Source of the DNA: a virus
Length of the DNA: 28,121 nt
IMG/VR virus record: IMGVR_UViG_3300009285_003389
Span: 1 to 28,121 of that record
Reading direction: 5' to 3' (one strand)
Made by a program: the position numbers and the translations under genes. This document shows positions 3,033 through 27,100 of this stretch, one piece after another (position 1 is the first letter of the stretch; every line of letters begins with the position of its first letter). The notes beneath the pieces are model-generated. The model made no database searches, had not been told where the DNA came from, and saw only the letters and a program-made list of their open reading frames with translations.

Positions 3033-3055
3033 CTCCGTAACATTGTGGTACAGAG
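3033..3055. repeat. 23-bp palindromic repeat, copy 1
   Basis: Plus-strand reading has left arm CTCCGTAACA, spacer TTG and right arm TGGTACAGAG. It lies between the stop of the 3057-4625 gene and the ATG at 3024. On the minus strand its last bases, GGAG, are the ribosome-binding site of the fibre gene. Confidence 0.9.
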
Positions 3056-3056
3056 T

Positions 3057-4625
3057 TTATTCACCCATCCCCTCTAAGGGGGCGAATTCAACTTGATATC
3101 CTTCAATCGCTGCAGGGAAGTTCGAGTACCATTCCGGCTCAATGGTTGTGCAAACTCGGTTGATATATGTGTCCAACGGCCGAACCCCTGAGCCTGGCCA
3201 CTTAAGACCGCTATTCCACTTTAGACCCGTGTTCCATTGGTAGCTTGCCCGCAAACCCAGCACGGCCCGCACTGGAGTCTGCTGCCCCTCGTCGATATTG
3301 CACTGAAACGTCACTTCCTGGCTTCCTGTCCGCTTTCTATAGATAGTCTTTACGTTGACTACCAGCTTTTCTATTCCGGGAAGGCCCAGATCATTTGGAG
3401 CCATCTTGATTCGCCAGCTATACGCTGTCCCCGAATCGCTGGTATATACTGTGCGATTGCCCTTGTATAGATATCCCGCGTAGCTACCAAACCAGTCCAG
3501 CTCTTCATTCGACACAGTGACATGCTGAACAAAGTTCATTGAGTGCTTTGGTGTGTCAAGCCATACATCCCCCGTGTCCCAGTCCCACACCAGAATCTTG
3601 TTATGCCCTGTTGTATTCCCAGCTCCAGAGCACAGCAGCCGAACTTGGTGATCCTTCTCCCGCACAAACGCCTGGCTATACTGCCACCGCCCCTGGTTCA
3701 AACCCAACCAAGTATTTACATCGTCCGAGTTGACTATCTCCACACTCATGTCTGGGCGAACAACGAACAGCCCCTCCCGCGCTGCCCCGAACACGAACTC
3801 TGGCCTGGCTACGATGCTCATCCGGCTAATCGGTCTAAACCCCCTACGTGGCTCTCCCAACCGAAAGTCGTAGTGCCCCAGCTGATCATAGCTAATCCCT
3901 CCCGGATACAGTCCGTCTTCCTTAAAGATCAGCGCCGCCCCCCAGTTGTCCACACAGCCCACGATTTTCGGCCCTCCATCGTATATCTCGTACCGATTGG
4001 CCGTTGGCCAGCTCGTGATATCCACCGTATACGTCGAGCGGTTGATGTCGCACCACCGAACACGTGTAGGGTAGTAGACTCCCGACTCTGTAGTCCCCAC
4101 GAAAATCAGCAGGTTCTTATGCGACATCATAGCCACGGCTTTAGAGAACTGAATCCCCGTAAGATCCGCGGCCACAGTTGGCGTTGTATCGTCTCCGTCC
4201 CACGTCTGTGGCGTATCCACCCCGTTGTTTATAACCAGCTTGTCCTTGAGCAGAACAAACTCGCAGAGATTATCTGCCGTGCCCGTCAAAGCATCCCCCG
4301 TGAGAGCAACCCTTGTCGTCCCGTCGTCCGAGTAGATCTTCGTTGGGGTTACCACAACTCTTTTTGTGCTACCGGCTGCAAAGGCCCCCTCCCATAAGCC
4401 AACTACAGCCTCACCTGCAGGGAGCTGCGTGGAGTTATACAGATCATACCCAGTCCGACTCTCTGCAGTCCCCCGCTCGCTAAGATTCACGTCCTGCAAT
4501 ATAGTGCAGTTCTCCGCGGTCAACCGCGGATGCGGATACCGCCAACGAGAGCGCTGCCCACCCACCCTAAACATCCGGCTGGTCTGAACACCAGGAGTGA
4601 CCCGCGTTACCGCTCCAGTAGTCAT
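3057..4625 (-). CDS. Putative tail hub / DNA-stabilisation-type protein (522 aa)
   Basis: The protein has a run of beta-rich segments with recurring Gly, Asp and Trp (for example QTWDGDD, VVVTPTKIYSDD, GLYPGG, LVWDWDTGDVW). This is compatible with a beta-propeller such as those of podovirus tail-hub and stabilisation proteins. The N-terminal part contains NLSERGTAESRTGYD, resembling the start of such proteins, where an R-x-G segment is common. It lies between an adaptor-like gene and the fibre gene, which fits a tail-hub role. The ATG has CGGAAG upstream and overlaps the previous stop codon by four bases. The family assignment is from general resemblance, so it is moderate at best. Confidence 0.55.
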   Translation of the reverse strand: MTTGAVTRVTPGVQTSRMFRVGGQRSRWRYPHPRLTAENCTILQDVNLSERGTAESRTGYDLYNSTQLPAGEAVVGLWEGAFAAGSTKRVVVTPTKIYSDDGTTRVALTGDALTGTADNLCEFVLLKDKLVINNGVDTPQTWDGDDTTPTVAADLTGIQFSKAVAMMSHKNLLIFVGTTESGVYYPTRVRWCDINRSTYTVDITSWPTANRYEIYDGGPKIVGCVDNWGAALIFKEDGLYPGGISYDQLGHYDFRLGEPRRGFRPISRMSIVARPEFVFGAAREGLFVVRPDMSVEIVNSDDVNTWLGLNQGRWQYSQAFVREKDHQVRLLCSGAGNTTGHNKILVWDWDTGDVWLDTPKHSMNFVQHVTVSNEELDWFGSYAGYLYKGNRTVYTSDSGTAYSWRIKMAPNDLGLPGIEKLVVNVKTIYRKRTGSQEVTFQCNIDEGQQTPVRAVLGLRASYQWNTGLKWNSGLKWPGSGVRPLDTYINRVCTTIEPEWYSNFPAAIEGYQVEFAPLEGMGE

Positions 4626-6850: not shown

Positions 6851-7763
6851 TGTCAAATCCACACACCCTGAGTAGATCCTTCACTCTCTGCTCGTATGTA
6901 TGCCCCGCACGAACAAAAGCCTTCCCAGCTGCTGCAATCTTCTCTCTGCGCTCTATGTCAGTCAAAATCTCGCGGGCTTTCTCTACTGCCTCGTCTACCG
7001 TGTTCCAGCCCAGAAAGTGCACCCCCTCCTGAAAGCCAAGCTTATCCCACCCCACCATGTCAGCATTGCACAGCTGACACACCCCATAACTCATGACCTC
7101 AAAGAACCGCATGTTCAAGTCCTGACGAATACTCACGTTCAGCCCAACCCGTGCCTTGGCATAGCGAATTGCCGCTTGTTCGAAGAATACGTTGAACGCA
7201 AGCCAGGAGTTCGGAAACTCCTGGAACATTCGGTCCAAGAAAGCTACACGGTCATGACTCAACGGATCGTCTTTTACGCCTCGATTCAAGTACCCTACGA
7301 AAGCCAAATCCCACTCTCGTGTAAGATCCACCTTGTTACCCAGGTGTTTCGTTAGCTCCTCATAGCAAGGGTCAAGGTACGTATTACACGCTAGCGGAAG
7401 CCAGTCCACGCTCCCAATTCCGTCCCCAGCCATCCGCGCCACGTCTGGAAGCTGCGCTAGAAACACGTGATCAAAGCTTCGTGCCCACTCAAGCCGCTTG
7501 CTATACCCCAGATGCGTGTCGATCAACCAGCATGCGTTCGGCTTCGGCGGGAGCCATACAATATCGTCCCTGCCATCGTCAATAAACAGATTCAAGTCAT
7601 GCTCCGCGAAGTCATCTCCGGCCGGCCGGCTATATCGCTGGAACCCGCATTCCTTCATCCCTAGCCGGCACATAGCCTCTGTCACCCGGCGTGCGGTTCC
7701 GTTGTTCCGGATCTCTGCGTTGTAGAAGTTCCCAACGCTTGGCCAGCTCTTCTTACCGGTCAT
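6843..7763 (-). CDS. Glycosyltransferase, CgeB-like GT-B C-terminal type (306 aa)
   Basis: The C-terminal half carries the signature of the glycosyl transferases 1_2 / CgeB family: ARVGLNVSIRQDLNMRFFEV, then SYGVCQL at about residues 205-232 and a closing AGHTYEQRV segment. Members transfer a sugar from a nucleotide donor to an acceptor, and this region binds the donor. I chose the ATG at 7763 because AAGGAGCG lies just upstream and because it overlaps the stop of the previous gene by one base (TGATG). A start 15 codons earlier lacks this. It is one of five glycan genes in the late operon. The acceptor is unknown; a virion protein is an inference. Confidence 0.82.
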   Translation of the reverse strand: MTGKKSWPSVGNFYNAEIRNNGTARRVTEAMCRLGMKECGFQRYSRPAGDDFAEHDLNLFIDDGRDDIVWLPPKPNACWLIDTHLGYSKRLEWARSFDHVFLAQLPDVARMAGDGIGSVDWLPLACNTYLDPCYEELTKHLGNKVDLTREWDLAFVGYLNRGVKDDPLSHDRVAFLDRMFQEFPNSWLAFNVFFEQAAIRYAKARVGLNVSIRQDLNMRFFEVMSYGVCQLCNADMVGWDKLGFQEGVHFLGWNTVDEAVEKAREILTDIERREKIAAAGKAFVRAGHTYEQRVKDLLRVCGFDTP

Positions 7764-8932
7764 CAACCGCGCTCCTTCGGGTAGAAGCACAGAAAGTAGT
7801 AGTACCACGCCATCTTTGGGTGCCCAGTGTGCACAACTTCGTCGTTCATGCTAAAGCAGAGAACCCGACCAAAGTACCGTTCCAGAATCTCTAACAGCTC
7901 ATCGCGGTCGTAGCAGTGTACGTGAGACAGATAGCTTAGCTCACACTGGTACGGCTGCGAGTACACACTTGGACAGCCAAGTACTACCATTCCGTTATCT
8001 GCCACCACAAGCGACATTCTCTCAATTGCTTGCTTTCCCTGCTCTAGCGTCCAATGCTCAATCACATCCATTGCTACAACTGTGTCATAGCTGCCCAAAG
8101 GACCTTCGTGCACCAAAAAGTCCAGCTCCCGAAACTCCACGTTGTCTCGAGGACAGAACCGCGCAGCCTCAAGCACACAATCCAGCTGGACATCTACACC
8201 AACCACCTTCTGACAGAACTGCCCCATGAACACCGCCCCAATCCCATAGCCAGCTCCAATCTCAAGCACCCGATCTGTCTGCTTGAGCATCTTGGACACA
8301 AACTTATACCGCGCTAGCCGAATGGTGAGCATCAGTAGGTTGTCCGAGATGCACCTTGCGAATTCCGGCGGGAGCTGAGTATTCGGTACAGCGCTATAGA
8401 CGCTCTCAACAAGCTCCTTATATCCCACCGGATCTCGGTGGTAAGGACCAACGTCAAGGGATCGCTGCAGACTTGTGCTTGACAGCTTCTCTCCTGTAGT
8501 GATCACAAGACTTCCTCCATATTCTTCCAGTACTTTTCCCTCGCACTCCAGTAGAGCCGTCCTTGCTGGACCAGTAAGGGCATAGTCAGGCCCCTTGGAG
8601 TACAGCGCAGGCTGAAGAATCCGGAGGTTTTCTACCGGAGTCGCACAATGATCAATCACTACGTAGTCCACAATGCTGAGCGCTGCAAGGTTTAAAGCCC
8701 TGACATACTGATGGAACTTTGGGTGCCCATCTCCCTTTGCCAGAGCAACGTGCTTATCACAAGTCACTCCAACAACCAGCACGCTACCAAACTGCGCCGA
8801 CTGCTCAAGATGGCTAATATGCCCTGGGTGCAGCAAGTCCCACACTCCATGGCACATGACGACTTTCTCCCCCTCACACCTATCGCGGATTTCCTCTATC
8901 CCTAGAAGCTTCCTGCGATCAATCCTCTTCAT
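7763..8932 (-). CDS. Nucleotidyltransferase (HldE-C/RfaE type) fused to a SAM methyltransferase (389 aa)
   Basis: Two domains are visible. Residues about 20-160 match the cytidylyltransferase-like fold: GVWDLLHPGH at 29-38 holds the HxGH nucleotide-binding motif, followed by LVVGVTCD, KGPDY and a closing TTGEKLSSTSL, as in the adenylyltransferase half of heptose-activating HldE. Such enzymes join a sugar phosphate to a nucleotide. Residues about 200-360 are a class I methyltransferase: VLEIGAGYG (222-230) is motif I and MDVIEHW (288-294) follows. The fusion suggests one polypeptide that both activates and methylates a sugar or glycan. The start has GGAGGC upstream and overlaps the previous gene by 14 bases. 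Substrates are unknown. Confidence 0.85.
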   Translation of the reverse strand: MKRIDRRKLLGIEEIRDRCEGEKVVMCHGVWDLLHPGHISHLEQSAQFGSVLVVGVTCDKHVALAKGDGHPKFHQYVRALNLAALSIVDYVVIDHCATPVENLRILQPALYSKGPDYALTGPARTALLECEGKVLEEYGGSLVITTGEKLSSTSLQRSLDVGPYHRDPVGYKELVESVYSAVPNTQLPPEFARCISDNLLMLTIRLARYKFVSKMLKQTDRVLEIGAGYGIGAVFMGQFCQKVVGVDVQLDCVLEAARFCPRDNVEFRELDFLVHEGPLGSYDTVVAMDVIEHWTLEQGKQAIERMSLVVADNGMVVLGCPSVYSQPYQCELSYLSHVHCYDRDELLEILERYFGRVLCFSMNDEVVHTGHPKMAWYYYFLCFYPKERG

Positions 8933-10193
8933 CGCCAGCCTCCTTAACAGCCCTACACACAGTTGACCCCCACCCTATCGTACGGCACTCCATCACACGA
9001 AAGCCGCACCGCGAGATCAACCGCGGTAGGCTATTCGCTGTATATGCATGCACATGAGTACAGTCAAGTAAGATCGTGTTCATGCGCTCTTGGTCAGGTA
9101 CTGTAAGAAGAAGAGTCCCACCTGGTCGTAGCACTGCGTACCAGCGGTCTAGCGCAGCTATCGGGTCGACTAGGTGCTCCAGCAGATGCTGCGCCACAAG
9201 CACGTCCTGGCTTCCGTTCGCTACAAAGCCAAGCTCCGCCGCGTCTCCCACGACGTCTGGGGCAGCGGCGTCGAATTTCGTTCCCCCTGTTCCGCGTTCG
9301 CCCTTTGCGCTCTTGTCTACACCAACCAACCGCAGCCCAGGAGAGTCATACTTCGTGCTTCCGCAGCCCAGGTTGAAACCACTCCCACTAAGCTTGCTCA
9401 ATTGCCCCGACATCCAAGCCCCTTCATTCTCAGTATCGTGATTTTTCACTGTGCCCTGCGTGTAGCTCCATACAGGGTCAATCACCCGATACCAAGCATC
9501 CACTCCATGCTTCCTAATCAGAGCATTGTTTGTAGCTTCCTGCTGATCCTGGGAGTCCCACTGCTCACCAAACAGTCTCTTGCCTGTCTGCTGTCCAAAG
9601 TGGTGCAGATAGCAGTCCCTACGTAAGAGCAGCTGATACCCAGCCTTTACCAGCCGGATGCTCAAGTCTAGATCATCCCCGCCGGGCAAGTGACCATCTA
9701 GACCGCCCAGATCCTTCAAGACAGCAGTCCGCGTCATCAAACAGAACCCGATTAGCAGCCTTACATTCACGACCCCTGGCACAGTTAGGTTCATTAAACT
9801 TTGGCAGCCAGCCACAAAGTTGGAGCACGGGCCCACTGCGCCAACGGCTGGATCCTCTAAACCTTCCCACAGTAGTCGCCAGAACGTGTTGTGCCCAGGC
9901 AGAAACATCACGTCATCGTTCAACATGCAGAAGAGCTCAGTATCGCACTCTTCCAGCGCAGCATTAATCCCACCTATCCAGCCGACGTTCCGCTCCATGT
10001 GCCGTACCGTGAGCAGCTCTCCCACACTAGACCCTGAAACGTAGCCATCAAGCTGCGCCGAAGCCGGTGGATGGTTGTTCACCAACACAACACGGTATGG
10101 GAACTCCGTATACATGAACAGCGACCGAATGCACCAGTCCAGCTGTTGCATGTTGTTGAGCGTGGGGATAGCTATCGTAAGAATCGGCTTCAC
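8919..10193 (-). CDS. Family 2 glycosyltransferase fused to a SAM methyltransferase (424 aa)
   Basis: Residues 1-240 form a GT-A domain: TIAIPTLNN at the start, VVLVNNH, NVGWIGGINAAL, and the metal-binding LNDDV at 91-95, then GLDGHLPGGDDLDLSIRLV. This is the family 2 pattern. Residues about 268-400 are a methyltransferase of the Methyltransf_11 type: NLGCGS (274-279), LVAQHLLEH (332-340) and LRPGGTLLLTVPD. The GTG start overlaps the upstream stop (GTGA) and has GGGAGG before it. The enzyme probably adds a sugar and then methylates it, or caps a chain. The donor, acceptor and methyl position cannot be read from sequence. Confidence 0.85.
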   Translation of the reverse strand: MKPILTIAIPTLNNMQQLDWCIRSLFMYTEFPYRVVLVNNHPPASAQLDGYVSGSSVGELLTVRHMERNVGWIGGINAALEECDTELFCMLNDDVMFLPGHNTFWRLLWEGLEDPAVGAVGPCSNFVAGCQSLMNLTVPGVVNVRLLIGFCLMTRTAVLKDLGGLDGHLPGGDDLDLSIRLVKAGYQLLLRRDCYLHHFGQQTGKRLFGEQWDSQDQQEATNNALIRKHGVDAWYRVIDPVWSYTQGTVKNHDTENEGAWMSGQLSKLSGSGFNLGCGSTKYDSPGLRLVGVDKSAKGERGTGGTKFDAAAPDVVGDAAELGFVANGSQDVLVAQHLLEHLVDPIAALDRWYAVLRPGGTLLLTVPDQERMNTILLDCTHVHAYTANSLPRLISRCGFRVMECRTIGWGSTVCRAVKEAGDEED

Positions 10194-11101
10194 TTAGCCA
10201 GCCTCCCACTCCCAGTAACTGGATAGATCACCCCGTCGTCGCCCCGCTGGACCTCGCTAACCCCCGCGCCAAACAGATCCGCATAGGTCTGTCTGGCTGC
10301 CAAACGCTCCGGCCAGTAAGTCTCCTCACATGCCCAGCGGGCGGTATGCTCCTTGTGCATGGTCTTCACGCATGTGTCAACGTAGCGTGGAATGCCATGC
10401 TTGCTCAGCCGATGGCAGAAGAACCAGTCTTCCCCGCACCCTGTGCTGTTGAACCATGGCTTTGGAAGCTCCCGAAACACACGCATGTCGAACAGCACCA
10501 TCCCTGCACCAAACGCCAGCGGTCCACCAACCACAGCATCATCCAGCAACGCATCGCGTGGATAGTCCAGTACAATGTCGCTTCCGTCGATCACGTCGAA
10601 CCCCTGAGGATCCCGGTGGGTCCGCATACGGTAGATCACTGGATGTATCGGGTGTCTAGCCGTGAACGCCAACGCCGCACAGACAAGCTTCTGTCTACGC
10701 CACAGCTGCATAAATCCACTCACGGGGAACAGCATATCCGAGTCCCATGCAAGTAACCAATCTGCCCCCCACTCCTGTGCGCCCTCGACGACCATCTCCC
10801 TCGCCCGACCAACCATAGATAGCCGACTACGGTTTATCATCCCAATATCGAGAACTCCCAGCTTCTCGTAGTCCTCCGCTGTGGGCTCGGCCAGCCCCAT
10901 TGGGTCAATGAACCCCTCGGATAGAGGCGGCAAGCTGTCTTCAAGCAGCTCAAAGCCCACCACGTCCCCTTGAGCTTGCATCCGCTGCCTAAACAGCGTC
11001 CTTTGCCGCAGCGCCCCCAGATAGCCGAAGAAGTTCTGATAATACGGCGCCGTGTTGTCGTCAGGCCCTGCATACCAGTGCCCACTAATTGCCAACTTCA
11101 T
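10190..11101 (-). CDS. GT-A type glycosyltransferase (303 aa)
   Basis: The segment EWGADWLLAWDSDMLFP (residues 110-126) holds a DSD metal/nucleotide-sugar motif in the context typical of GT-A glycosyltransferases found in phages. The upstream NRSRLSMVGRAREMVVEGA is the helix that usually precedes it. A later GCGEDWFFCHRLSKHG resembles the catalytic GxDxxF region. The ATG (MKLAISGHWY) has GGGGGAGGA five bases upstream. The gene follows repeat copy 3 and overlaps the next gene by four bases. It is part of the same glycan cassette. Donor and acceptor are not identifiable. Confidence 0.75.
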   Translation of the reverse strand: MKLAISGHWYAGPDDNTAPYYQNFFGYLGALRQRTLFRQRMQAQGDVVGFELLEDSLPPLSEGFIDPMGLAEPTAEDYEKLGVLDIGMINRSRLSMVGRAREMVVEGAQEWGADWLLAWDSDMLFPVSGFMQLWRRQKLVCAALAFTARHPIHPVIYRMRTHRDPQGFDVIDGSDIVLDYPRDALLDDAVVGGPLAFGAGMVLFDMRVFRELPKPWFNSTGCGEDWFFCHRLSKHGIPRYVDTCVKTMHKEHTARWACEETYWPERLAARQTYADLFGAGVSEVQRGDDGVIYPVTGSGRLAK

Positions 11102-11116
11102 GCTATCCTCCCCCTG

Positions 11117-11139
11117 CTCCGTAACATTATGGTACAGAG
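11117..11139. repeat. 23-bp palindromic repeat, copy 3
   Basis: Plus-strand reading has left arm CTCCGTAACA, spacer TTA and right arm TGGTACAGAG. On the minus strand it holds the TAA stop of the 11127-11984 gene and lies 15 bases before the ATG at 11101. Confidence 0.9.
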
Positions 11140-11984
11140 TTTGTTGGAAACCACCTGGGAACAACCCGCTCCAGCTCCGCCGCCAAACTATCCCAGCTCC
11201 ACCCATACAGCAACATCGCGTTGTTTGCATCGTGCCCACCAGAGAGAACGTACCGGTGGTAGGACGCCAGCCCATACTTTCTAATAAGCTGGTTCCGCCC
11301 AAGCTCTCCCCAGGCCAGAATCTTAGCCGCAAGATCCGTCTCAACCTTGCTCATTGTAGCCGCTGGGTCATGGTGCACATAAGCCCGACGGTCTACCACA
11401 ATCTTGTATCCGGCTCGCCGAAGTCTAAGACACAGGTCTGAGTCAATGGCGTGCCACAGCCTTGGGTCCCAGCCTCCCACTTCGTCCAGTACATCCTTGC
11501 GAGCAAGAACAGCACTACCATGAACATGATTAGCCACAAAGCGCTCAGGCAGATCAACACGATGAAGCTGTTGCCCCTCATAGAGTTCATTAGAGCACGG
11601 AGCGACAAGACCAACCTCCTTGTACCATGCAGTTTCCACCAAATAGTCCCAAAACCTGCTGCTGCTCGGGGCAAAAGCCATATCGTCTTGCATGAACGCC
11701 ACAAAAGCTGTCCCAACAACATTGAGCAGCTCCTGCAGTGGGTATCGATTTTCTGCCGCCATGCGCGGGCCGAACAAGTTGTAACCGCAACCAAGAACCC
11801 GTCCTCTCTCCCCAAGCCAGTGGCTGCACAACCCACGCACGCGCTGCTGCTTCTCCACGTCTTCGTTGTTGTCCCACAACAGAACAAAGCCGTCAAAACC
11901 ACTGTATCGGACTAGCGTTCCAAGAAACCGCGCCAGCAAGTCACAGTTATCATACGTCATAAGACAGACTGTGACTGCCTTCAT
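11127..11984 (-). CDS. Family 2 glycosyltransferase (285 aa)
   Basis: The N-terminal MKAVTVCLMTYDNCDLLARF, the WDNNED segment and AFMQDDMAF (metal motif QDD at 99-101) are those of a family 2 GT-A enzyme. VGGWDPRLWHAIDSDLCLRLRR gives the usual acceptor-side motif. The ATG at 11984 has AGAAGGG upstream and overlaps the previous stop (ATGA). An in-frame start 14 codons upstream is less likely. The stop codon lies inside palindromic repeat copy 3. It is the first glycosyltransferase of the cassette in transcription order. Confidence 0.82.
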   Translation of the reverse strand: MKAVTVCLMTYDNCDLLARFLGTLVRYSGFDGFVLLWDNNEDVEKQQRVRGLCSHWLGERGRVLGCGYNLFGPRMAAENRYPLQELLNVVGTAFVAFMQDDMAFAPSSSRFWDYLVETAWYKEVGLVAPCSNELYEGQQLHRVDLPERFVANHVHGSAVLARKDVLDEVGGWDPRLWHAIDSDLCLRLRRAGYKIVVDRRAYVHHDPAATMSKVETDLAAKILAWGELGRNQLIRKYGLASYHRYVLSGGHDANNAMLLYGWSWDSLAAELERVVPRWFPTNSVP

Positions 11985-12280
11985 TCTCTGCCCTTCTGGG
12001 ACCACAGCACCATCCGCTCTCGCCATGTAAGCCGGTCAAGTAGCCCCAGCTTCATCTTTACAAAGTTCCACAGGCTGCTTTCCAGACACGGCCGGCAGAG
12101 ATGGCCAGCATGGAGTTTCTTGATCCTCTGTGGTGCGTTAATCCACATAACCCGCCCGCACTGACAACGCACCAAAAACCGCTTTCTATCCTCCGCATGA
12201 TGCGGCTCCAGCCAGTGTAGCCACCATGGCCACCGCTTAATCGGAGTGCACGGAGCTGGATTGTACTCACTCGCTTCCAT
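11981..12280 (-). CDS. Small zinc-ribbon-like protein (99 aa)
   Basis: Four cysteines are arranged as C39-x-C41 and C62-x2-C65, with the segments RCQCGRVMW and HLCRPCLES. This suggests a zinc-binding ribbon. The N-terminal part is rich in Trp and His. The ATG follows repeat copy 4 by eleven bases, with AGAGAAGGGG as ribosome-binding region. It opens the glycan cassette, after the three hairpins. Function unknown; a small zinc-binding accessory or regulatory protein is possible. Confidence 0.65.
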   Translation of the reverse strand: MEASEYNPAPCTPIKRWPWWLHWLEPHHAEDRKRFLVRCQCGRVMWINAPQRIKKLHAGHLCRPCLESSLWNFVKMKLGLLDRLTWRERMVLWSQKGRE

Positions 12281-18787: not shown

Positions 18788-20437
18788 CTATTCCGCTGGG
18801 AACTCTGCCACCCCAATGTCCGGAACCATCATTGCCCCCCTTGGTACTCGCTGGCCAAGCCGCCTCCGACGATTCATGTCCACCAGGTCGCTGAATGTAT
18901 AAACCCGTGGAGTGATCTTTGGCTGCTCCGGCCGAGGGATCATCCGTCCCTTACCCTGCATAGAATCCAGCTTGATCCCGAAGAGCGCTAGCATGTCTAC
19001 CTGGTCGTCGTATTTCCCGCCGGGGAACTTACTTAGCTCATGGCATAGATCCCCAAGCCACGGTGCATTAAACGGTGCGTGGACGTAACCCAGCTGCATA
19101 GCACCAGCTATCGCACCCGCGCGGTCTGGGCTGTCCTTCCTGCCGCGCCCAATGACGGACACGTCCTCAACCAACGTCCACGCCTTCCGCTCTTTCCGGC
19201 GCTTGTCCAGCAGTGGCCGATAGACCCTTGCCATGCTGGTCTTTTCTAGGTAGAATTTTCGCGCCCGCCACTGAAGCATCAGCTCAATCGCCCGTTCAAC
19301 TCCTGCCTCTATCTCGCACTGCTCCCGCCAGATGTCCAGCAGCCACAAATGCCCCTCCGGACAGACACCGGCCACTCCCAAGACAGAAAAGTCCCCTTCC
19401 CCAGAAGATAGGGCAAAGTCTGAAGAGATATACAGAGTCAGCCTCTTCGGTAGCTCGCCAAGGCCAAAAAGTCGCAGCCAACTTGGCTTGAACATGTCCC
19501 CGTCGTCGCTGACCGGCTTCTGCTGATGTAGGGCCATGAACAGCCGTGCGGATCTAGACCTTAAGCTGGCCAGCTCTTCCATGCTGCGGCGGTTTGGTCC
19601 AGAGGGTAGAAGAACCTCCCCCGGCGCGCGCCCTAACATGTCTCCTGGCTCGGCAATCGACGGCAGCGAGACGATGTCCCACTGCTCCTCGCCCGTGGAG
19701 TTAAGTTTCTCTACCCTCCCACCAATGTCGTCGTCATGCCAGCGCTGCAAGATCAAGACTACCGAGCCCACTCCATCACGGTAGCTCCGCAGTCTATTGA
19801 GCAGGACTCCCGCAAACCAGTTCCACACCAGCTCTCTATGCTCCGGCGAGCTGGCCTGCTCCCAGTTCTTTATTGGATCGTCGATTACAGCGACGTGTGC
19901 GTGGAAGCCGATAAGTCCACCGCCGACTCCTTCGGCTTTATATTCTCCCCCTGACGTGAGCTTCCACTCATCCATCGCCGTGGCGTCAGGGGAGAGTTGA
20001 GCGTCAGGGAACAGTAGCTGAAAGCTTGGATGCTTGATTAGGTTACGAACGTTGCGACCGAATCCACGGGCGAGGTCATGGTCGTAGCTGGCCTGGATGA
20101 ACTCAAGCCGCGGGTTCCGGCCAAGAAACCAAGCGGGAAATAACTCCGAAGCTAGGCGAGATTTTCCCGAAGCTGGGGGGACAAAAATCGCCAGCCGTCT
20201 AATCCGCCCGGCTTCTATGTCTTCCAGCTTCCGGGAGATAAGTCTATGTACGGGGTATGGCTCATACAGCGGGTCGACGAACTGAGCAAAGTCGATTAGA
20301 TTCTCCCGCGCGCGCTCGCGGTGAAGCAGCGTGGAGATGAGATCTGCAGCGGATTCAGGTGGGAGCCCGCTAGCAGTTGCCTCTTCAGCCCCCACAAGCA
20401 ATCCAGCCAGCTCGTCCGCGCGCCCCAGAGCATTCAT
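18788..20437 (-). CDS. terL: Terminase large subunit (549 aa)
   Basis: It is the packaging motor and head-filling nuclease. The ATPase domain has a Walker A-like VPPASGKS (86-93) and Walker B VAVIDD (182-187). The C-terminal RNase H-like nuclease has ISSDFALS with D340, FYLEKTS with E399 and GKYDDQVDML with aspartates at 477, 478 and 481. All match the family. The ATG overlaps the small-terminase stop (ATGA), and the stop codon lies just before repeat copy 6. Length is within the usual range. Confidence 0.95.
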   Translation of the reverse strand: MNALGRADELAGLLVGAEEATASGLPPESAADLISTLLHRERARENLIDFAQFVDPLYEPYPVHRLISRKLEDIEAGRIRRLAIFVPPASGKSRLASELFPAWFLGRNPRLEFIQASYDHDLARGFGRNVRNLIKHPSFQLLFPDAQLSPDATAMDEWKLTSGGEYKAEGVGGGLIGFHAHVAVIDDPIKNWEQASSPEHRELVWNWFAGVLLNRLRSYRDGVGSVVLILQRWHDDDIGGRVEKLNSTGEEQWDIVSLPSIAEPGDMLGRAPGEVLLPSGPNRRSMEELASLRSRSARLFMALHQQKPVSDDGDMFKPSWLRLFGLGELPKRLTLYISSDFALSSGEGDFSVLGVAGVCPEGHLWLLDIWREQCEIEAGVERAIELMLQWRARKFYLEKTSMARVYRPLLDKRRKERKAWTLVEDVSVIGRGRKDSPDRAGAIAGAMQLGYVHAPFNAPWLGDLCHELSKFPGGKYDDQVDMLALFGIKLDSMQGKGRMIPRPEQPKITPRVYTFSDLVDMNRRRRLGQRVPRGAMMVPDIGVAEFPAE

Positions 20438-21114
20438 GGCTCTGTAACATCTTGGTACAGAGTGGCCGAGGCCGGAAGGTTGTTCTCTACCAGCTCTCCC
20501 TCTACCGCTTCTGTGCTGGTCTCATCCTTCCAGTGCCTTCGCAAGGCACGGCCAAGCAGCTCACGGTCTGTCTCGGGCAGCTGGGCCAATGCGGTCTCCA
20601 CGTCTACAGGGTCCCTCTCTGCGTGTTGGTCAAGTAGCTCAACCAGCCGCTGTGTCGGTGCGGCGGTTACGTGCACCTGCACGGAATCTATCTCCCGTCG
20701 CTCTGTGTATCCGCGGTCTTTGCCCAAAGTCTGCAGCAGCTTCCAACTGTAACCTAAATGCCCAGCTTCCACGGCCCGAAATATGTTGTCCTCAGCTGTG
20801 TCTACCATCCCCTGCCTTGACTCCAGATACACGTCCTTGAGCCGAGGGCAGCGAAGAATATGGTAGCGCACAGAGACGGGGCTGTCCATCCCAAGTTCCT
20901 GCGCTACCTTGCTCAAAATCCCTCGATGCTTAATGATCGCCTCAGCCAGAAGGCGCTCTCGCTCGCGAGCTTGGCTCCTTATTGCCTGCAGAACAGAAGC
21001 GTTACTCTGAGCGCGGTTCCAAATTACCGACGGGCTACAGTCGAGCAGCTGGCCCGCTTGCTCAATAGTATTAGTCCTCTGAAGCACTGCAACGATGTCC
21101 CCAGATTGGAACAT
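20434..21114 (-). CDS. terS: Putative terminase small subunit (226 aa)
   Basis: It lies immediately upstream of the large terminase and overlaps its start. Residues 1-60 look like a DNA-binding helix-turn-helix (VAVLQRTNTIEQAGQLLDCS), and a second such segment follows (GILSKVAQELGMDSPVSV). Both fit the DNA-recognition part of small terminases. The rest is helical. I chose ATG 21114, with GGGGAGGA six bases upstream; the open frame extends about 90 codons further upstream with no better start. The last eight codons (LYQDVTEP) are encoded by repeat copy 7, so the protein tail is repeat-derived. Confidence 0.72.
   Translation of the reverse strand: MFQSGDIVAVLQRTNTIEQAGQLLDCSPSVIWNRAQSNASVLQAIRSQARERERLLAEAIIKHRGILSKVAQELGMDSPVSVRYHILRCPRLKDVYLESRQGMVDTAEDNIFRAVEAGHLGYSWKLLQTLGKDRGYTERREIDSVQVHVTAAPTQRLVELLDQHAERDPVDVETALAQLPETDRELLGRALRRHWKDETSTEAVEGELVENNLPASATLYQDVTEP
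20440..20462. repeat. 23-bp palindromic repeat, copy 7, inside the small-terminase 3' end
   Basis: Arms CTCTGTAACA and TGGTACAGAG, spacer TCT. The outer seven bases pair perfectly. It is translated as the end of the small terminase and lies two bases before the large-terminase ATG. Confidence 0.9.
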
Positions 21115-21283
21115 CTTCGCTCCTCCCCTACCCATCTTCCAAGCTCTCTTTGGCTTTGCCTCTGTCAGCCGCTTCTGCTGCCCAGAAGGACTCCCCTTTA
21201 GCCCTCTCTGCATCCACGCAGCAACCACCAGGCTGACAGGTTTACGGCCGTGGTGGACGGCCACGGCGCCAAAATTGGCGCCT
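21115..21283. other. Short intergenic gap with two hairpins
   Basis: Directly after the stop of the membrane-protein gene is an 18-base near-palindrome (GGCGCCAA at 21265 and TTGGCGCC ending at 21282), followed by CCGTGG (21248-21253) paired with CCACGG (21261-21266). No T-run follows. A frame open on the minus strand continues the small-terminase frame upstream but has no good start here. Confidence 0.5.
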
Positions 21284-21712
21284 TCAACCTGCGCGCTCCG
21301 CGCTCCCTTTGGCCAGCCGGTGCAGCAACCGCAGCAGCCCAGCCAGCACTGCCGTTCCTGCCGCAGCTCGCAGCGTCTCAAGGCTTAGCGGAGTCTGGCC
21401 GATGGCCTCAATCACGCCCGCGGCAATCCCAGCCACAAACGGGACAATGACGTGCCGGGCCACGCTATATACATCTTCCCTATCTAGCTGCCCTCTTTTA
21501 CTCACTGCCGTCTCTCCACCTTGTTGTATCCGTCCTGCCCTCTGACTCTCTGACTCTCTGACTCTCTGACTCTCTGACTCTCTGACTCTCTGACTCTCTG
21601 ACTCTGGCCCGCGCAGTATGCGGATCAACGCCAACCGGGCGCCGAACCCTCCAGAAGCTAGATACTCCAGGGCGGCCCCTATCTCTCTATCTCTCTGCCC
21701 TCTTTTACTCAC
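21284..21712 (-). CDS. Octamer-array fusion frame, C-terminus holin-like (142 aa)
   Basis: A GTG at 21712 with AAGGTGGAGAGG upstream opens a frame whose product has three parts. Residues 1-38 begin MSKRGQRDRE. Then follows an eight-residue repeat (ESESQRVR) encoded by the octamer array. The last 73 residues begin VSKRGQLDRED and could be translated alone from an internal GTG at 21505 that has the same upstream sequence. That part has one or two hydrophobic helices (IVPFVAGIAAGVIEAIG, AAAGTAVLAGLLRLL) like a small holin. The two starts arise from a local duplication. A change in octamer number would split the frame into two proteins. Confidence 0.6.
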   Translation of the reverse strand: MSKRGQRDREIGAALEYLASGGFGARLALIRILRGPESESQRVRESESQRVRESESQRAGRIQQGGETAVSKRGQLDREDVYSVARHVIVPFVAGIAAGVIEAIGQTPLSLETLRAAAGTAVLAGLLRLLHRLAKGSAERAG

Positions 21713-21778
21713 TGCCGCCTCTCCACCTTGTTATATCCGCCCCGCCCTGCCCGCACAGTCTGCGGGTTAACGCCAACG
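21488..21778. repeat. Tandem duplication covering a gene junction
   Basis: Two copies of about 85 bases lie 207 bases apart at their left ends: 21488-21636 (interrupted by the octamer array) and 21695-21778. Both contain the same ribosome-binding sequence, GTG start and downstream codons on the minus strand, and the same CCGCGCAG/CCGCACAG segment. Confidence 0.8.
21541..21604. repeat. Octamer array, eight perfect copies of TCTGACTC
   Basis: Eight uninterrupted copies, 64 bases in all. They lie inside copy 1 of the junction duplication; copy 2 lacks the array. The array is translated on the minus strand with an eight-residue period. It is a candidate slippage (phase-variation) site. Confidence 0.95.
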
Positions 21779-21878
21779 CCTTCTCGGCCGCAGTGGCTAG
21801 CTTTACCCTTCTGTTCCACAAGTCTGCGACCTTAACCACCATCTTGGGGTGGGGTGGGGCGGAGGGGGAAACCACCAT
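21705..21878 (-). CDS. Small basic hypothetical protein (57 aa)
   Basis: The ATG at 21878 has GTAGGAG just upstream and is about 20 bases downstream of the predicted start of the leftward promoter, so this is likely the first gene of the leftward operon. The product starts MVVSPSAPPHPK and has a basic helix (LWNRRVKLATAAEKALALTR). Its C-terminal part is similar in frame to residues about 25-36 of the next product (ALALTRRLCG and LALIRILRG), so the two are partly paralogous. Its stop overlaps the next GTG start by eight bases. No family recognised. Confidence 0.6.
   Translation of the reverse strand: MVVSPSAPPHPKMVVKVADLWNRRVKLATAAEKALALTRRLCGQGGADITRWRGGSE
21846..21868 (+). other. G-rich tract with G-quadruplex potential
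   Basis: The plus strand has three runs of four G separated by single T, then GG and a run of five G. It lies within the first codons of the first leftward gene, just downstream of its promoter, on the template strand. A C-rich near-mirror of part of it lies at about 21984-22010. Confidence 0.5.
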
Positions 21879-21906: not shown

Positions 21907-21935
21907 AATATATGGTAGGGGAAGGGAGGTGTCAA
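21907..21935 (-). promoter_or_regulatory. Leftward sigma-70-type promoter
   Basis: On the minus strand TTGACA (21935-21930), a 17-base spacer and TATATT (21912-21907) match the consensus almost completely. Transcription would start near 21899, about 20 bases before the first leftward ATG. It probably drives the small-protein/terminase operon. Confidence 0.75.
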
Positions 21936-22502: not shown

Positions 22503-22958
22503 ATGCAGAACTACCTGGTGTCGACGAACTCCGGTCTCGGCAAGGGCGCCGGCAAGGGCCTGACCGTGACCGTGAAAATGGACGGGGTCACGCCCGACCA
22601 AGTCGAGGCCCTGGCCCGGTGCGAGGTGAACAGGACGTTCGCGGACCTGTTCCGGAGGGCGAAGGAAGATCTGGAGAACCGGAAGGCCGGCCGGGCACAG
22701 AAGTACGGACTCGCCGCTCTTTGGGAGACGATCCTTAAGGAGCGGAAGTACTCCTTCTCCGTCGCCACGCATCTGGCGCGGGCGAGAGGGGCGGTCACCG
22801 AAGGGGTGGCCCTGGCACTGCTGGCAGACGGTGGGATGACAGACGAAGAGATTCTCGAGGCCATCCGGGCCAGAAGGCAGAAGCCGGACGAGGAAGAGGA
22901 AGAGGAAGAGGAAGAGGAAGAAGAGGAAGAAGAGGAAGAAGAGGAAGAAGAGAAGTAG
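22503..22958 (+). CDS. Hypothetical protein with a C-terminal poly-glutamate tail (151 aa)
   Basis: AGGAGGCGG lies just before the ATG. The first 125 residues are a mixed helical protein (GVTPDQVEALARCEV, FADLFRRAKEDLENRKAG, MTDEEILEAIRARR). The last 25 or so are one unbroken glutamate tract encoded by GAGGAA/GAGGAAGAA repeats, ending in Lys. Such acidic tails can imitate DNA or bind basic proteins, but here nothing tells which. No family recognised. The frame on the opposite strand is only a serine mirror of the repeat. Confidence 0.75.
   Translation: MQNYLVSTNSGLGKGAGKGLTVTVKMDGVTPDQVEALARCEVNRTFADLFRRAKEDLENRKAGRAQKYGLAALWETILKERKYSFSVATHLARARGAVTEGVALALLADGGMTDEEILEAIRARRQKPDEEEEEEEEEEEEEEEEEEEEEK
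22888..22954 (+). repeat. GAA/GAG microsatellite coding for poly-Glu
   Basis: First (GAGGAA) units, then (GAGGAAGAA) units, all in frame, at the 3' end of the 22503-22958 gene. Codons alternate between GAG and GAA rather than being a single triplet. Length changes by whole units would keep the frame. Confidence 0.9.
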
Positions 22959-23439: not shown

Positions 23440-23544
23440 ATGTGCCATGCATGGGTCTATGGACCTATGGACCCCTTGAGTGTATATTTCCCTGTAACCT
23501 ATTGGGGGACAAAGGAATAGGGCATATGCCATGGTTCCATAGTA

Positions 23545-23679
23545 CTAGCTCTCCCCCCATATGTTTAAAGGGAAAAGGAGGTCGGCTTTTTCCTTTTTTC
23601 TTTTTTTTTTTTTAAAAGCCAATACTAGACAAGACCAGCCAATCTCCCTTTCCCTTTAAACATATGGGGGGAGAGCTAG
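23545..23679. repeat. 36-base inverted repeat around a T-rich tract
   Basis: The arms 23545-23580 and 23644-23679 are complementary with one mismatch, both containing CCCCCCATATGTTTAAAGGG or its complement. The 63 bases between hold a run of 13 T at 23601-23613, itself framed by GGCTTTT and AAAAGCC. A large cruciform or RNA hairpin is possible. I see no transposase or target-site duplication. Confidence 0.85.
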
Positions 23680-23737
23680 CCTTATGGGATCATTGGAACC
23701 GGGGGCTTCCCCATCCCCAGCGGGGCTGACGCCCCTA

Positions 23738-24515: not shown

Positions 24516-25439
24516 ATGCCATACAAGGTACTTACCCATGATTACCGTCCGCCCATACAGGGCGGAGATCCAATCTGGGACGGCGCGCCTGGCGCTCTCC
24601 TACCCGTAGTGCCACTGGACACGACGAAGAACGCGTGTGGCACACACGGGGGCTGGCACTACTGTGCCACCATAGAGGATGCCCTGGATATCGCTGGGCT
24701 CTGGCCCGATGGGTGGCCGTCTGTGGTTGCGGAGGTCAGCCCAGAAGGCCCTGTGATCTGGAGTGGTTCCAAGTACCGAACCAGCTCGCTACGCTTGGTC
24801 CGTGTTGTGCCTGAAGAGGAAGTCCAAGAGGGAGTCTACAGACTCTCGGCACCATTCGGCCCGTACCAAGATGATATGACCGCTGAGCAGATGCAATGGA
24901 GAGGAGCACTGAGTCGTCCGTTGCACGACCCGGAAGCCGTGGACCTACACCTCCATGTGGCCCTTGATGCCCGGGGACTACCGTGGATACTACAGCAGTT
25001 TGACACAAGGCGGGCTGTGTGGGATGCGCGCATTGCGTGGAATGCACAGAGTGCGGATGCTGCGTGGCATGCACGGGCTGCGTGGTCTAAGGGGACTACG
25101 TGGAATGAGGGGACTGCGTGGGTTGGCGTGCCATGGTCCACACGGGCTATGTGGGCTCCGCAGGCTACACAAGCTATGTGGGAAACGCGGAATGTGCGGG
25201 CTGCGTGGCAGATGCGGGATGTGAGGTATATGTGGGCTGTGGGGGATGCGTCTGATGCGCTCTTGGTGCAATACGCCGTCCGTCAAGGATGGTTCTCCGC
25301 CGACCCACAACTGCTCACTCTTGGGATACAAGATGCCTACGCTGCTGGTCTATGCAGCGCCGGCCCCACAGGACCTAGTACCCTTGGCTGGGCGATGGTC
25401 CCCATAGAGGAGACCAACGAGAGCCCGCTCGCTGGGTAG
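24516..25439 (+). CDS. Ala/Trp triplet-repeat protein with DUF7666-like N-terminal domain, paralog 1 (307 aa)
   Basis: Residues 1-150 are a domain beginning MPYKVLTHDYRPPIQGGDP, with WHYCATIEDALDIAGLWPDG and VVAEVSPEGPV. The G-x-H-x-C, dAL and eV-x-G order resembles the DUF7666-type domain; this is a tentative recollection. Residues about 165-248 are a low-complexity region where Trp recurs at spacings mostly of 6 and 9 residues, as in WDARIAWNAQ and WHARAAWSKG. The C-terminal VQYAVRQGWFSADPQLLTLG is shared with paralog 2. GAGGAGG precedes the ATG. Function unknown. Confidence 0.8.
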   Translation: MPYKVLTHDYRPPIQGGDPIWDGAPGALLPVVPLDTTKNACGTHGGWHYCATIEDALDIAGLWPDGWPSVVAEVSPEGPVIWSGSKYRTSSLRLVRVVPEEEVQEGVYRLSAPFGPYQDDMTAEQMQWRGALSRPLHDPEAVDLHLHVALDARGLPWILQQFDTRRAVWDARIAWNAQSADAAWHARAAWSKGTTWNEGTAWVGVPWSTRAMWAPQATQAMWETRNVRAAWQMRDVRYMWAVGDASDALLVQYAVRQGWFSADPQLLTLGIQDAYAAGLCSAGPTGPSTLGWAMVPIEETNESPLAG

Positions 25440-25482: not shown

Positions 25483-25713
25483 ATGCACAAGCAAGTCCAG
25501 CTGGCCTACTCTCACTCCACAGGGTCATGCTATCTCTACGTGACCCCCGAGGGGGTCGAATGCCGTGGTGTAGCTTCAGACCCAGATACGGGGAAGTACT
25601 TAGCCACTCCCGGCATCCACGTAACCTGGGAGGAACTGCTCCATCTGCGTGGCCTAGTATCGTCAACTCCGTACCAAGATGTTACAGAGCCGGCCAGAGA
25701 AGGGAAGGAATAA
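25483..25713 (+). CDS. Hypothetical protein ending in a repeat-encoded tail (76 aa)
   Basis: The ATG follows AAAGGATATACA. The protein has a beta-type pattern (QLAYSHSTGSCYLYVTPEGV, GVASDPDTGKYLATPGIHV) and ends with TPYQDVTEPAREGKE, where YQDVTEP is read from palindromic repeat copy 11. It lies immediately upstream of the LuxR-type gene. No family recognised. The same YQDVTEP ending appears in the small terminase, because both genes run through the repeat in the same frame. Confidence 0.65.
   Translation: MHKQVQLAYSHSTGSCYLYVTPEGVECRGVASDPDTGKYLATPGIHVTWEELLHLRGLVSSTPYQDVTEPAREGKE
25667..25689. repeat. 23-bp palindromic repeat, copy 11
   Basis: Left arm CTCCGTACCA, spacer AGA, right arm TGTTACAGAG. 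It lies inside the 3' end of the 25483 gene and 28 bases before the ATG of the LuxR-type gene at 25718. Confidence 0.9.
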
Positions 25714-25717
25714 CCCA

Positions 25718-25978
25718 ATGGAACAAACCATTCCAGTCCCTCCACGGCTTCCAACCCCACGTACCCTAATTACCCGGCTAACCCATAGGGAGATTCAAGT
25801 AACCGCCCTACTGGCAGCAGGGTACACACAAAAGGAGGTTGCGGACAAGCTCGAAATCTCGTTCCGTACGGTGACGACACACCGCCACCATATAGGGACA
25901 AAAACAGGACTGCAGCTCAACACGGACCTTACCAGGCTGGCTATCGGTGCTGGTCTATTAATTGAGGAGGTCAGCTAG
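25718..25978 (+). CDS. Stand-alone LuxR/GerE-type HTH DNA-binding protein (86 aa)
   Basis: The GerE hallmark is clear: LTHREIQVTALLAAGYTQKE (residues 21-40), then VADKLEISFRTVTTHRHHIG and a K-T-G at about 61-64. It contains only the helix-turn-helix domain plus a short proline-rich N-terminus, without receiver or ligand domain. Such domains bind DNA as dimers on palindromes. The ATG at 25718 has GGAAGGA upstream; an ATG at 25679 in the same frame lies within the repeat and is less likely. The nearby repeat copy 11 makes self-regulation plausible. Confidence 0.88.
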   Translation: MEQTIPVPPRLPTPRTLITRLTHREIQVTALLAAGYTQKEVADKLEISFRTVTTHRHHIGTKTGLQLNTDLTRLAIGAGLLIEEVS

Positions 25979-26182: not shown

Positions 26183-27100
26183 ATGCCATACAAAGCGCTC
26201 ACGCACGATTACCGTCCGCCTATACAAGGTGGTGACCCCATCTGGGATGGAACGCCCGGAGCCGTGCTGCCCAAGGTCGAGACGGACTGCACATATACCG
26301 CGTGCAGTGCTGGATGGAACTACTGCGATACGGTGGCGCAGTGTCTTACCATCGCCGGACTATGGCCCGATGGCTGGCCGTCCGCTGTCGTAGAAGTGGA
26401 ACCTATAGGGAGCACATTTCGCTGCGAGAACAAAAGCCGCGCACCCTCCCTGCGCATCCACCGGCAGTTGAGCGAGTCTGAAATCCGCCCAGCCGTGGAA
26501 GAAATGTCAGTCCCCTTTGGGAGCTACCAGCAGGGGATGTGCGATGCACAGATGGCGTGGCGTACGGCACTATCTCGCCCCTTACACGACCGGGGACAGG
26601 TGGAGGCCGGCTTGGCTCAGGCGCTGAAAGTGCGCGGGCTCAAGTGGACGCTGCAGGACCTTAGGGTGGCTCGGGACGCCGAGAACGCCAAGGACGTGGA
26701 GAACGCCAGGGCTGCGTGGGCCGCTAGGGCCGCCAGGGACGCGTGGGACGCTTGGGCTGTCGTGACCGCGTGGAACGCTAGAAACGTCACGGCCGTCAGA
26801 GCAATCTGGGACGCCAGAGCCGCATGGACCACATGGCCCATCTGGGACGCCTGGGACAAGTGGGCCAACAGGGACTGGGCTGACATCTGGAACACGTGGG
26901 ACGCCTGGGACACCAGGGCTGCGTGGGCTGCCAGGGCGGCCATGACAGTCCAGTACGCTGCTCTGCAGGGCTGGATCCTCTTGGATCCTTTGCACCTTAC
27001 CACTGGGCTGCAGGACGCCTATCGCAACGGGCTGGACAGAGTCTCGCCCACGGGCAAGGACACACTCAGCTACACACTTCATAGGGAGACAGACACGTGA
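26183..27100 (+). CDS. Ala/Trp triplet-repeat protein with DUF7666-like N-terminal domain, paralog 2 (305 aa)
   Basis: Starts MPYKALTHDYRPPIQGGDP, nearly identical to paralog 1, with WNYCDTVAQCLTIAGLWPDG. I chose ATG 26183, with AAAGGAGC upstream, although the frame is open further upstream. Residues about 160-255 carry W-D-A / R-A-A type triplets (WDARAAWTTWPIWDAWDKW). The C-terminal VQYAALQGWILLDPLHLTTG matches paralog 1. Its end overlaps the next gene by four bases. Function unknown; a binding or scaffold role for the repeat is possible. Confidence 0.8.
   Translation: MPYKALTHDYRPPIQGGDPIWDGTPGAVLPKVETDCTYTACSAGWNYCDTVAQCLTIAGLWPDGWPSAVVEVEPIGSTFRCENKSRAPSLRIHRQLSESEIRPAVEEMSVPFGSYQQGMCDAQMAWRTALSRPLHDRGQVEAGLAQALKVRGLKWTLQDLRVARDAENAKDVENARAAWAARAARDAWDAWAVVTAWNARNVTAVRAIWDARAAWTTWPIWDAWDKWANRDWADIWNTWDAWDTRAAWAARAAMTVQYAALQGWILLDPLHLTTGLQDAYRNGLDRVSPTGKDTLSYTLHRETDT

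Follow-up and report, generated by a model that had tools for sequence, protein, structure and literature searches.

The window, which comprises all 28,121 bp of the IMG/VR virus record IMGVR_UViG_3300009285_003389, belongs to a tailed phage with a large terminase subunit (TerL) and an SU10-type adaptor; its capsid-like, portal-like and TerS-like proteins were recognised by gene order and have counterparts in related contigs. The promoter-proximal end of its minus-strand structural operon has the order promoter, ORF A, ORF B, ORF C, TerS and TerL, all features being on the minus strand. The sigma-70-like promoter (21907-21935; TTGACA-17-TATATT, 11 of 12 consensus positions) lies upstream of ORF A (21705-21878), a gene of 57 codons that is the first after the promoter and whose terminal TAA overlaps a GTG at 21712. 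This GTG opens a frame of 142 codons (21284-21712, ending with the TGA at 21286-21284) that fuses ORFs B and C and is open at the eight repeat copies present in the record. Its B part (21506-21712) has a head copied from C and a tail copied from A, with an octamer array within it, while ORF C (21284-21505) encodes 73 residues from a GTG of its own, has two hydrophobic segments and is holin-like by size, hydropathy and position only. Downstream of C lie the putative small terminase subunit TerS (20434-21213), assigned by its place in the gene order beside TerL, and TerL itself (18788-20437).

The octamer array

The array (21541-21604) consists of eight perfect copies of TCTGACTC on the plus strand, or AGAGTCAG in the register of the coding strand, and lies about 330 nt upstream of TerS. 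Tandem Repeats Finder reports it as one array at 21540-21605 with a period of 8, 8.2 copies and 100% match, and the region holds seven overlapping 16-mers as against 0.01 expected from shuffled sequences. The 142-aa ORF remains open through the array and contains (ESESQRVR)n; the eight perfect octamers that the initial annotation had described are found as stated, in an open minus-strand frame. The unit is free of stop codons in all three minus-strand frames, and since 8 and 3 share no factor each frame gives the same eight-residue cycle ESESQRVR. The array places an 8-bp unit, which is not divisible by 3, in an open minus-strand frame that is predicted to be translated. A further 8-bp repeat detected by Tandem Repeats Finder, AGAGATAG, occurs in 2.2 copies in the head of B (21679-21696, minus strand). 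A search of 788 kb from loci of related phages turned up no perfect array with a period of 7 or 8 and four or more copies; perfect arrays with four or more copies and a period of 4-15 numbered only six, and in five of them the period is divisible by 3.

A duplicated gene junction

Comparison of repeats within the locus revealed a 94-nt segment that is present twice in imperfect form, the copies matching over 65 nt at 89% identity and over 29 nt at 86% identity. The first copy (21684-21777, minus strand) spans the A/B junction and is without the array; the second (21477-21635, minus strand) spans the B/C junction and is split by a 65-nt insert bearing the array into the pieces 21477-21541 and 21607-21635. 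Each copy includes the final part of A, a ribosome-binding site (RBS), the overlap GTGAGTAA and the opening codons of C. The initial annotation had remarked that the GTGs at 21712 and 21505 share the same ribosome-binding sequence; the repetition is genuine, but it forms part of this larger partial duplication of the junction, which had gone unseen. The repeated RBS and start, which gave an impression of design, are explained by the A/C junction having been partly duplicated in tandem. When the insert is removed in silico, B becomes an ORF of 49 codons with its TAA over the next GTG, just as A ends, and the tail of this insert-less B matches that of A (LALIRILRG..GRTDTTRWRDGSE against LALTRRLCG..GADITRWRGGSE). 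ORF B hence looks like a product of such a duplication, and we infer that the duplication came first and growth of the array second. Even without any switch the locus is a clear case of an overlapping gene junction that has duplicated and yielded a new ORF with a microsatellite.

To place the locus we gathered relatives by scans with the capsid protein (MCP), TerL and portal, which brought together contigs at 52-67% identity; a TerL scan of genome contigs gave best relatives at only 36%. In L045 and L049 the ORF that immediately precedes TerS is similar to ORF A (shuffle P ~0.0008 for each), and in L113 the small ORF before TerS is more weakly similar to it (shuffle P ~0.006). No gene separates the A-like ORF from TerS in L045 and L049, while in L113-L115 the divergent gene (seen in L115) is followed by the A-like gene, a small gene and TerS, the small gene encoding a basic protein of 42 residues that is unlike C. 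Neither B, C nor the octamer array was found in any of the closest contigs (L044, L045, L049, L050, L052, L053 and L110-L116). In viral contigs a pattern search for relatives of C gave 141 matches, none of which was confirmed, and DNA patterns of the duplicated junction and of four octamers were not found. By these comparisons A appears to be a conserved gene, and B, C and the array are seen only here among the contigs compared.

Copy number and reading frame

We rebuilt the fusion ORF in silico for 0 to 14 octamer copies (n), which showed that: 1) at n = 2, 5, 8, 11 and 14 the GTG at 21712 is joined to the frame of the GTG at 21505, with 142 residues at n = 8; 2) at n = 0, 3, 6, 9 and 12 translation from 21712 meets a TGA beginning at 21504, the TGA in GTGA; and 3) at n = 1, 4, 7, 10 and 13 it meets a TAA beginning at 21500, the TAA in GTGAGTAA. 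The start region of C reads C-A-GTG-AGT-AA, and both stops of the unfused classes overlap or directly abut the GTG at 21505. The frame argument of the initial annotation holds up in each of its parts: the fusion from 21712 at eight copies has 142 residues, the other two frames end in TGA or TAA at the internal GTG throughout n = 0-14, and fusion is kept only at copy numbers differing by multiples of three, exactly those with n = 2 mod 3. A change in copy number, as in a contingency locus, shifts the frame between distinct predicted products across this range. Unlike in such a locus, no state removes the start or the RBS of C. The array cannot switch C off, because the stops of the unfused frames overlap its start codon and C keeps its own RBS; it could therefore only toggle C with or without a hydrophilic front end of 69 residues, and from the layout of the sequence C should be produced whatever the copy number. 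A stop placed over a start codon is the arrangement classically associated with termination-reinitiation. Occlusion of the RBS by mRNA structure over the array was also considered and was rejected, as the fold energy equals that of shuffled sequences. As a caution, a correct frame argument is not the same as evidence for a switch, and the fusion frame at n = 8 is a one-in-three event by chance alone.

A coding-potential scan ranked the fusion frame best before the array and in C, and gave it neutral to slightly negative values through the array itself, a pattern that fits either use or non-use of the 21712 start. When the stretch after the array is compared with its duplicate, the differences amount in the fusion frame to two synonymous changes, one amino-acid change and one lost stop (TAA to CAA), as against amino-acid changes at all four of four in the frame of A. 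These differences weakly favour use of the fusion frame, their number being too small for significance.

ORF C as a holin candidate

The two hydrophobic segments of ORF C have hydropathy peaks of 2.29 and 1.50 (17-residue mean). AlphaFold2, run on the fusion as a single sequence without an alignment, gave a low-confidence model with two long helices (mean pLDDT 65, pTM 0.30). Searches of C against Pfam and the holin PHROGs returned no match up to an E-value limit of 10, and a phage tblastn search likewise returned none; as judged by these searches, C is an orphan. A weak match to an amidase PHROG falls inside a virion protein of 522 residues, and the Pfam and PHROG scans detected neither a further lysis domain among the ORFs they covered nor a clear endolysin in the window. 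The earlier description of this frame as holin-like agrees with the two hydrophobic segments, but no family match accompanies them, and it stands as a weak assignment. On size, hydropathy and position C is compatible with a class II holin, which we treat as a lead.

Origin of the array and rival explanations

In our assessment the array is probably a slippage-prone by-product in an ORF born by duplication, able to toggle between fused and separate proteins. Under such a scenario ancestral A and C would have been an overlapping gene pair sharing GTGAGTAA, and the partial tandem duplication of their junction, evident in the two copies, would have come next and created ORF B, its head taken from C and its tail from A. 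The 8-bp repeat now seen inside the second duplicate may then have grown by polymerase slippage, such that copy numbers of n = 2 mod 3 would fuse B to C and the other classes would end B on the C start codon. In the unfused states C would still be made from its own RBS together with termination-reinitiation, as the overlap suggests. Any variation in copy number would affect the presence of the 69-residue front end and not C itself, and the by-product would be tolerated because every frame leaves C expressed. Speculatively, and provided that C is a holin, its long form might inhibit the holin and so shift the timing of lysis.

The same features might alternatively mark a phase-variation switch under selection, in which slippage would produce phage subpopulations with and without the B-C fusion and selection would keep the heterogeneity, for example with a long holin-like form delaying lysis. 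Such a switch would account for a perfect, uninterrupted, non-triplet array without a stop in any coding frame, for its exact frame logic, for its position after a predicted strong promoter and for the removal of the post-array stop in the fusion frame; yet comparison with relatives of 52-60% TerL identity did not find the array, the present frame would be reached by chance in one case of three, C is expected in all states, and C has no family match. The use of hypermutable tracts by phage reportedly has a precedent (Sorensen et al. 2021, Cell Rep 35:109214, cited in PMC10877375). On this balance we consider a selected switch unlikely. Its fuller version, wherein an octanucleotide switch toggles a small membrane protein, possibly a holin, between a plain form and one with the hydrophilic front end, the other frames being buffered by termination-reinitiation and the population hedging its lysis time by slippage, seems to us somewhat less plausible still.

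A role of the repeat as DNA or RNA, for example as pac or cos direct repeats recognised by TerS and placed upstream of terS, or as a binding array, would fit the short distance between the array and TerS. In the related contig L050, hexamer repeats that contain AGTC, (GTCGAA)n, also lie upstream of TerS (3784-3807 and 4057-4091 of that contig), with an in-frame EVEVEVE tail. Across 97 TerL loci, however, the two bins upstream of TerS contain tandem repeats at densities of 0.38 and 0.13 per kb as against 0.39-0.42 further upstream, and arrays upstream of terS as pac or cos sites were rejected for this lack of enrichment. With no such array in L049 or L113-L115, and with regional RNA folding no better than in shuffles (z -0.02), we regard a DNA or RNA role as very unlikely. 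We think it similarly improbable that the length of the array or the duplicated junction was misassembled or missequenced, even in a virus record from the IMG/VR collection with direct repeats 207 nt apart: the duplicates differ by 11-14%, enough to tell them apart, the array, at 66 bp, would fit within a short read of ordinary length, and all units are identical and bounded by unique flanking sequence.

Comparison with known systems

The bacterial simple-sequence-repeat contingency loci, such as the octanucleotide and tetranucleotide loci of H. influenzae, undergo translational phase variation by slipped-strand mispairing. The array shares with them a perfect short repeat with a unit not divisible by 3, near the 5' end of a frame that here is predicted to be translated; it differs in belonging to a phage, in having only eight copies, in leaving the downstream protein expressible in every frame and in being known here from sequence alone. 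The octanucleotide 5'-GCATCATC-3' upstream of hmwA homologues, in 12-15 copies, lies in the promoter region and not in a coding frame (PMC3309571). Dual-start holin/antiholin genes, namely lambda S107/S105 and phage 21 S71/S68, have extensions of 2-3 residues (PMC9671378). Like these, the fusion and C would be two versions of a small membrane protein made from alternative starts in one frame, of which the longer has additional charged residues at its N terminus, whereas here the extension has 69 residues and is in frame only at some copy numbers, and C is a holin candidate only.

In T7 the holin gene 17.5 precedes gene 18 (terS). C resembles it as a small protein, predicted to have two helices, encoded just upstream of TerS; no sequence match links the two, and the Pfam and PHROG scans identified no endolysin in the window. 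Campylobacter phages reportedly have hypermutable polyG tracts (Sorensen et al. 2021, cited in PMC10877375). Like the present array these would be slippage-prone tracts in a phage genome, there reportedly serving diversity, and they differ from it in being homopolymers and not octamers. If copy number does vary and the fusion is made, the microsatellite would let the phage make a single membrane protein in two forms while always retaining that protein, which would set it apart from the usual on/off phase variation; were C also a holin, this would be a simple route to bet-hedging of lysis time.

Other features of the window

A 23-bp palindrome, CTCYGTAnCAnnnTGnTACRGAG, is present in eleven copies of 23 nt each, mostly intergenic (positions 3033, 6828, 11117, 12292, 15933, 18764, 20440, 22012, 23006, 23738 and 25667), and a search allowing at most three mismatches gave 12 matches against 0.18 expected. 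It also occurs in L113-L116 at matching sites, one upstream of A and the other separating TerL from portal. The palindrome looks like the operator of a dimeric regulator (CTGTA-N9-TACAG, which comes close to a lux box) or like a stem-loop between genes; some copies do not preserve the RNA pairing. A small helix-turn-helix protein of the GerE/LuxR type (25679-25978, plus strand; PF00196, E 2.5e-13), which was not found in the incomplete records of the relatives, is a candidate for binding the palindrome.

Within the structural operon a cluster of glycosyltransferase, methyltransferase and cytidylyltransferase-domain genes (7763-12026, minus strand) suggests phage-encoded sugar modification. Two plus-strand proteins (24516-25439 and 26184-27100) have a common opening, MPYK.LTHDYRPPIQGGDPIWDG, and long imperfect runs of Trp/Ala-rich repeats, with tandem repeats in the DNA at 26674-26942. 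A divergent gene of 151 codons ends in a poly-Glu tail encoded by (GAAGAG)n (22886-22952) and has relatives in L050 and L115, where they are divergent too. An inverted repeat (23531-23587 and 23637-23693), with 57-nt arms that are 86% complementary and 49 nt apart, surrounds a poly-T tract.
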